Origin: Actinomycetes bacterium
GTDB lineage: Bacteria; Actinomycetota; Acidimicrobiia; Acidimicrobiales; RAAP-2
Length of the DNA: 34,412 nucleotides
Assembly: GCA_021838005.1 (NCBI GenBank)
Contig: JAKCEK010000002.1
Span: forward strand, 1 to 34,412
Direction of reading: 5' to 3'
Made by a program: the position numbers and the translations under genes. Below, one piece after another: positions 10,028 through 13,229 of the stretch (the stretch's first letter is position 1; the number at the start of each line of letters is the position of its first letter). The notes beneath the pieces were generated by a model, which saw only the letters and a program-made list of their open reading frames with translations, was not told the origin of the DNA and did no database searches.

Positions 10028-10094
10028 CGCGCCACCCTAGGCGTCGGGCCCGCAGGGGCCCTTCAGTACCATGGGTGAACCCCGAAGGAGTCCC

Positions 10095-13000
10095 ATGTTC
10101 CGTCCGCTCAGTCCCGAGTTCGACTTCGTCGCCCTCGAAGAGGCCGAGCTCGCCCGCTGGAGGGCCAACCGGGTTTTCGAACGCTCCATGGACGTGCGCG
10201 AGGGTCGCCCGTCGTGGGTCTTCTACGAGGGTCCGCCCACGGCCAACGGCAAGCCCGGCCTCCACCACGTCTGGGCCCGCGTCTACAAGGACCTCTTCTG
10301 CCGGTACCGCACCATGCGGGGCTACTACGTCGCCCGCCGCGCCGGCTGGGACACCCACGGCCTGCCCGTCGAGGTCCAGGTGGAAAAGCAGCTGGGCATC
10401 TCGGGCAAGAAGGCGATCGAGGAGGAGGTCGGGATCGCCGAGTTCACGCGGCTGTGTCGTGAGTCGGTCCTCGTCTTCGTGGGCGAGTTCGAGCGGCTCA
10501 CCGAGCGCATCGGCTACTGGACCGACCTCGAGCACGCCTACTACACCTTCCACCCCTCCTACGTGGAGTCGGTGTGGTGGCACCTGAAGCGCCTCTTCGA
10601 CGCCGAGCTGCTCTACGAGGACCTCAAGGTCGTGCCGTACTGCCCCCGGTGCGAGACGGCGCTCTCCTCCCACGAGCTCGGCCAGCCCGGCGTCTACTAC
10701 GACGAGGTCGACCAGAGCTGCTTCGTGCGTCTTCGCCTCGTCGACGCGCACGGCCGCGACGACCTCGGCGGGGCGACCCACCTCGCGGTGTGGACGACGA
10801 CGCCCTGGACCCTGCTCGCGAACGTCGCGGTGGCCGTGAACCCGGTCATCGAGTACGCCGTCGTGGGGGGGACGGTCGTCGCGCGCGACCTGGTCGAGGC
10901 GGTCGTCGGCGAGGGAGCGATTGTCACCGCCACATTCTCGGGCACGGCCCTGCTCGGACTGCACTACGAGCGGCCCTTCGACGACGTGGCGATCCCCGCG
11001 GGCGCGGAGTGCTGCGTGGTCGTCGCGGCCGACTACGTCACGACCGAAGACGGCACCGGGCTCGTGCACCAGTCGCCGGCCTTCGGTGAGGTCGACCGCC
11101 AGGTCGCGCGCGAGAACGGCCTACCCACCCTCAACCCCGTCGGCCCGACGGGCGCCTTCACCAGCGCCGTGGCCTGGCTCGAGGGCGTCGGTGTGCGCGA
11201 GGCGAACCCGGCGATCAACGATGAGCTCGAGCGTCGCGGCCTGCTGATCCGGCGGATGGACTACGCCCACTCCCTGCCGCACTGCTGGCGTTGCGACACC
11301 GTCCTCATCTACTGGGGCAAGCCCAGCTGGTACGTCGCGACGAGCCGGTTGAAGGACCGGCTCATCGCCGAGAACGCGGCGGTCGACTGGCATCCCGGCT
11401 ACATCCGCGAGGGCCGCATGGGTGAGTGGCTCGAGAACAACGTGGACTGGGCGCTCTCGCGCGACCGTTACTGGGGGACGCCCCTACCGATCTGGCGCTG
11501 CGGCGACGGGCACCTGCACTGCGTGGGCTCGCGCGACGAGCTCAGCGCCCTCGCGGGCCGGGACCTGCGCCACGTCGAGCCCCACCGGCCCGAGATCGAC
11601 GAGGTCGTCTTCGACTGCCCGGTCTGCGGGTCGCTCGCGCGTCGCGTCGAGCCCGTGATCGACGCGTGGTTCGACTCCGGCTCGATGCCGGCCGCTCAAG
11701 TGGGCTACCCTCACGCGCCGGGCAGCACCGAGGCCTTCCGCTTCCCCGCCCAACTCATCGCGGAGGCCATCGACCAGACGCGCGGCTGGTTCTACTCGCT
11801 GCTCGCGGTCAACACCCTGGTCTTTGGGCGCAGCCCCTACGAGCACGTGCTCTGCCTGGGCCACATCGTCGACGAGACGGGACGCAAGATGAGCAAGTCC
11901 CTGGGCAACGTGATCGATCCGTGGGAGGTCCTGTCGACTCGGGGCGCCGACGCGCTGCGCTGGTGGATGTTCTCCCAGGGCTCGCCGTGGACCTCGACGC
12001 GCACGAGCCTCGGGGCGATCGACGGCGCGCTTCGAGAGACGCTGGCCACCCTGTGGAACACGGTGAGCTTCTTCACGACCTACGCGTCGCTCAACGGCTT
12101 CGATCCGCAGGACCCGGCTGTCGTTGCGGCGGGTGAGCGAACGGCGATCGACCGGTGGGTCCTCTCGCGCACCGAGGCGGCCACCGAGGCCGTGACGGCC
12201 GCCCTCGACGGCTACGAGCCCCTCGCCGCGGCCGACGCGCTGCGCGAGCTCGTCGACGACGTCTCGAACTGGTACGTGCGACGCAGCCGCCGCCGGTTCT
12301 GGCGCACCGACCCCACCGCGCCGCGCGCGGACTCCCTAGCCGCCCAGGCGACGCTGCTCGAGGTATTGCGCCGGGTGACGTTGCTGCTCGCGCCCCTGTG
12401 TCCGTTCCTCGCCGACCGGCTCTACCACGAGCTGTTCGAGGTGGCCGACGAGGACTCGGTCCACCTGGCCGACTGGCCGGTGGCCGACCCGTCCCGGCGC
12501 GATCAGGTCCTAGAGGACTCCATGGCCGTCGCGCGCCGGCTCACCTCGCTCGGGCGGGCCGCGCGGGCCGAGGCCGGCGTGCGGGTGCGTCAGCCCCTGT
12601 CGCGGGCCCTGGTCTTCCTCCCGCCGGGCACGCCCCGGCCGCCGGTGGGGATCGTCGAGGACGAGCTCAACGTCGACCGCCTCGACTTCGGCGGCGAGCT
12701 GGCCGAGGTGCTCGACTTCGCGCTCGTGCCCAACTTCCGCAGCGTCGGCCCACGTCTGGGCGAGGCCGTCAAGGAGCTGCGCGGGGCTCTCGCGGCCCTC
12801 GAGCCCGTCGCGGCCGCCGAGGCCCTCGAGTCGGGTCGGCCGGTGACGGTCACCCTCGGGGGTGCGTCGGTGACGCTCTCGAGCGAGGACGTGGAGCTGA
12901 GGGTGAGCGGGCACGGCGGCTTCGCCGTGTCGCGCGACCGGGGCGAGGTCGTCGCTCTCGACCTCGCCCTCGACGAGGGCCTGGTGCGCCGCGGCCTGGC

Positions 13001-13229
13001 GCGCGACGTCGTGCGCCAGGTGCAGGACCTGCGCAAGGCGTCGGGCCTCGAGGTCTCGGACCGCATCGTGCTGCGGGTCACGGGACTCGACGACCTCGCC
13101 GAGGAGTTCGCCTCGATCGCCCTCGAGGTGCTCGCCCTCGAGGTGCTCGACGTCGCCGGCGAGGGGGAGGGGAACCGGCTCGAGCTCGACGACGGCCGCG
13201 ACGCCCGGGCCTGGATCGCCCGCGTCTAG
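10095..13229 (+). CDS. ileS: Isoleucyl-tRNA synthetase (eukaryote-like/type-2 IleRS architecture)
   Basis: ATG 10095 with [67 protein letters not shown], the CP1 editing segment [28 protein letters not shown] at about 11880-11909, and a long C-terminal domain (1044 aa total). Confidence 0.97.
   Translation: [1044 protein letters not shown]

Follow-up and report, generated by a model that had tools for sequence, protein, structure and literature searches.

The window, that is, the whole 34,412-nucleotide stretch of DNA analysed here, carries an isoleucyl-tRNA synthetase gene (ileS) whose class I HIGH signature reads Gly-Leu-His-His (GLHH). Its product is very probably the housekeeping type 2 isoleucyl-tRNA synthetase (IleRS2) of an uncultured acidimicrobial actinobacterium, a member of the GXHH subclade that should be both active and mupirocin hyper-resistant. 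Direct observation covers the motif and where it lies, the clade, the single copy and the intactness of the rest of the enzyme; catalytic competence would follow from the characterised homologues, and mupirocin hyper-resistance of the protein is strongly suggested by analogy. The features concerned are the following:

10071-13229, forward strand: ileS, isoleucyl-tRNA synthetase type 2, 1,052 amino acids (TIGR00392, Pfam, translation)
10095, forward strand: alternative ATG start of ileS, giving a product of 1,044 amino acids
10085-10090, forward strand: AAGGAG, probable ribosome binding site of the 10095 start, as read from the sequence
10257-10268, forward strand: GLHH, the HIGH signature in swapped G-X-H-H form, residues 63-66 (sequence, alignments, model)
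10794-10808, forward strand: TTTPW, residues 242-246, in the CP1 editing domain (no variation among 25 aligned sequences; aligned with reference IleRSs)
11067-11096, forward strand: CP1 editing residues H333 to D342, both invariant in the 25 aligned sequences (aligned with reference IleRSs)
11886-11900, forward strand: KMSKS, the second class I signature, in canonical form, residues 606-610 (sequence and alignment)

The gene is complete, consisting of one long open reading frame without internal stop, and its product scores 836 bits against the TIGR00392 ileS model (cut-off 621), with Pfam matches to tRNA-synt_1, Anticodon_1 and DUF5915. Translation probably begins at 10095 rather than 10071, because AAGGAG lies close upstream of the former; residue numbers are nevertheless counted from 10071, and the 10095 start moves them by eight. 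A search of the window returned no T-box or other Rfam element upstream of ileS at the gathering threshold. The flanking genes examined, which encode aldehyde and alanine dehydrogenases, a GNAT protein and a MarR protein, are ordinary, and a mobile or antibiotic-cluster setting was rejected on these grounds.

An earlier note on this DNA had proposed that GLHH replaces HXGH in an otherwise intact type 2 enzyme, and had called for an alignment with the IleRS families, a look for HXGH elsewhere, a phylogeny and a search for a second ileS. The replacement is borne out by codons, alignments and predicted structure. The codons GGC CTC CAC CAC encode GLHH at residues 63-66, or 55-58 from the 10095 start, and the tetrad aligns exactly on HVGH in the IleRS2 structures 1ile (Thermus) and 8c8u (P. 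megaterium), and likewise on the GVHH engineered into 8c8w, with a gapless alignment to T. thermophilus 1ile over the 20-residue stretch around the motif. An AlphaFold2 model (mean pLDDT 87) places GLHH after strand 51-53, where helix 64-82 has its tip; this helix is the first in the catalytic fold, and the site is the HIGH position. Scanning the DNA for H-x-G-H codons across the gene revealed no canonical HXGH elsewhere. GLHH has the G/AXHH form, in which Gly or Ala comes first and the last two residues are His. The remainder of the enzyme is intact, as had been claimed: KMSKS, TTTPW, H333 and D342 are all present and invariant or nearly invariant among the 25 aligned sequences.

Phylogeny, sequence and predicted structure agree that the enzyme is an IleRS2, in line with the type given in the earlier note. 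In a 54-enzyme tree, a quick LG+G4 reconstruction with the motif columns removed and several open forks, IleRS1 and IleRS2 were split with 100% SH-aLRT support and the query fell with IleRS2, apart from the IleRS1 references. Within IleRS2 it is nested among actinobacterial GXHH enzymes, and it is this grouping that assigns it to the GXHH subclade; one larger group unites them with the canonical IleRS2 of P. megaterium and Thermus. The nearest solved structure, both by sequence (E 2e-247) and by fold (Foldseek rank 1), was 8c8w, whose description names a HIGH motif mutant that is hyper-resistant to mupirocin. The best structures by either measure were 8c8w, 8c8v, 8c9d and 8c8u, with IleRS1 structures far lower, and an IleRS1 reading was rejected by tree and structure comparison alike. 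The motif of 8c8w, a P. megaterium IleRS2 mutant, matches that of the query letter for letter except for the X residue, but its GVHH was engineered in the laboratory, whereas GLHH here is natural, and overall identity is 39% (Foldseek alignment). T. thermophilus IleRS2 (1ile) is 48% identical (Foldseek alignment) and has the same catalytic and CP1 domains, but carries canonical HVGH.

The variant itself is known. Brkic et al. 2023 report G/AXHH in 86 of 163 bacterial IleRS2 and in none among IleRS1 (PMC10485003), and the earlier note's statement on mupirocin-resistant natural GXHH enzymes was accurate. The same paper gives a mupirocin Ki of 6.6 mM for D. radiodurans IleRS2 (ALHH) and a millimolar Ki for the S. 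griseus enzyme; restoring HVGH lowered Ki 823-fold, and two canonical enzymes that were given GVHH showed a Ki about 200- to 400-fold higher (PMC10485003). Engineered GVHH on other backbones reached Ki values of only 35 and 460 uM (PMC10485003), and the exact level of resistance therefore depends on the backbone. The third His is described there as sitting where the catalytic first His normally does and, by modelling, as clashing with mupirocin (PMC10485003). Applied to the query, the third-position His would take the catalytic role usual for the first His of HXGH, owing to displacement of the motif-bearing helix in IleRS2, and the same bulky residue would clash with mupirocin, so that the enzyme would be expected to be active yet hyper-resistant, with a Ki in the sub-millimolar to millimolar range. 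The query shares with the G/AXHH enzymes of S. griseus and D. radiodurans (ALHH) the swapped signature, the enzyme type, the retained KMSKS and, very probably, the status of sole housekeeping copy; it differs in having Gly first and Leu as X and in its uncultured acidimicrobial host, none of which is a qualitative difference. It is a further member of the published variant and introduces no new principle.

Only one gene in the host genome, a 1.85-Mb draft that is 95% complete in 213 contigs, lies above the ileS cut-off. Two further class I matches were rejected as a second ileS, being valyl- and leucyl-tRNA synthetase. With no second IleRS found in this genome at that completeness, in answer to the search called for earlier, the GLHH enzyme is very probably the housekeeping enzyme, with a small reservation for the draft state of the genome. 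This bears on the alternative that the protein is impaired or repurposed and that another IleRS does the housekeeping, an idea prompted by the Gly in place of the first His of HXGH, a change damaging in several class I enzymes according to PMC10485003. The single copy comes close to refuting it, the catalytic and editing residues are invariant among the 25 aligned sequences, and natural GXHH/AXHH enzymes are active, that of D. radiodurans with a kcat of 45.5 per s (PMC10485003); we regard such an impairment as highly improbable.

The relatives support the main reading as well, and speak against an artefact or a newcomer. They comprised 80 named loci, mostly from Acidimicrobiaceae and other actinobacterial metagenome-assembled genomes, plus Nocardiopsis and others. 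GXHH was found in 77 of the 78 that cover the site, and also in five of five genus members and three of three family members sampled. Selection was by similarity or by even draws, and these samples are no census. A sequencing or assembly error, conceivable in a draft of 213 contigs, has a negligible chance of explaining GLHH and is already refuted, as independent assemblies 93-95% identical share the tetrad and scores of more distant relatives have the same form. Judged by these relatives, GXHH is the norm in the query's lineage, and the motif was probably inherited within it rather than recently acquired. Recent mupirocin selection or a mobile MupA-like resistance gene would be the contrary explanation, and plasmid-borne IleRS2 do exist (staphylococcal MupA; in Rhodococcus opacus, a plasmid gene with GTHH), but GXHH occurs in every sampled genus and family member and the flanking genes examined are ordinary. 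Staphylococcal MupA and MupB likewise belong to type 2 and are less sensitive to mupirocin; MupA, however, is a copy encoded on a plasmid, with about 37% identity to the query, and the query misses the cut-offs of both NCBIfam exception models (730.8 and 692.2 bits versus 1900 each), so that a MupA/MupB-like acquired gene was rejected. Recent acquisition is accordingly very unlikely. An ancient ileS transfer between lineages may have occurred, since the IleRS2 of some order- and class-mates belongs to a separate branch that has HYGH and about 38% identity, which makes the order mixed for IleRS2 type; this mixture fits the multiple ancient ileS2 transfers proposed earlier (PMC4861432).

With this gene, the published active-site variant linked to resistance is extended to an uncultured group of actinobacteria, some of whose relatives come from peat and similar soils, and it is fixed there in the only IleRS. 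Many environmental bacteria would then be hyper-resistant to mupirocin intrinsically, as a background trait and not a clinical acquisition.

Several other unusual IleRS signatures occur among the sequences compared, and those with [GA]VHT, HYGN or HLGT, together with the Rhodococcus opacus plasmid gene, make better leads than GLHH itself. The one named relative that covers the site without GXHH, from Acidimicrobiaceae bacterium palsa_552 (L036), has KLHH, with Lys first in the swapped motif of an otherwise ordinary enzyme. Six loci of class-mates (L125, L169, L170, L173, L222 and L223, in genomes G178, G227, G268, G215, G306 and G315) encode [GA]VHT for HXGH together with EMHGS for KMSKS, and in those aligned EQVRLWF replaces DQTRGWF. 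The gene is full-length and the only one over the ileS cut-off in G178, G227, G268, G215 and G306; in G315 a contig end truncates it. L169 forms a long branch basal to all other IleRS2 in the 54-enzyme tree. Should these be active synthetases, a single enzyme could have both defining class I motifs replaced, and might in this way resist inhibitors that mimic the adenylate.

Many class-mates have an IleRS2 with HYGN, the fourth His being replaced by Asn (L174, L175, L178, L179, L195, L197-L199, L204, L205, L207-L213, L216, L217, L219, L220 and L224), and HFGN and HFGT occur in L123 and L203, respectively; the passages of PMC10485003 consulted do not name the HYGN variant. It is possible, although we lean slightly against it, that Acidimicrobiia and their relatives rewrote the IleRS signature in several ways, as GXHH, as HYGN and as sole-copy [GA]VHT with EMHGS. 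Three actinobacterial IleRS1 (L129, L130 and L131) carry HLGT, with Thr for the fourth His of HXGH. The KMSKS signature varies as KASKS, KASKR or KMSKH in otherwise normal IleRS2 (L040, L046, L049, L186; L069, L072, Nocardiopsis loci). Finally, the Rhodococcus opacus plasmid NZ_CP095404.2 bears, at 445673-448828 (4911-8066 of L189), a GTHH/KMSKH ileS adjoining NRPS genes (AMP-binding, condensation, carrier protein) and an LLM oxidoreductase; judged by its sequence context, it may well confer self-resistance to an inhibitor of IleRS.
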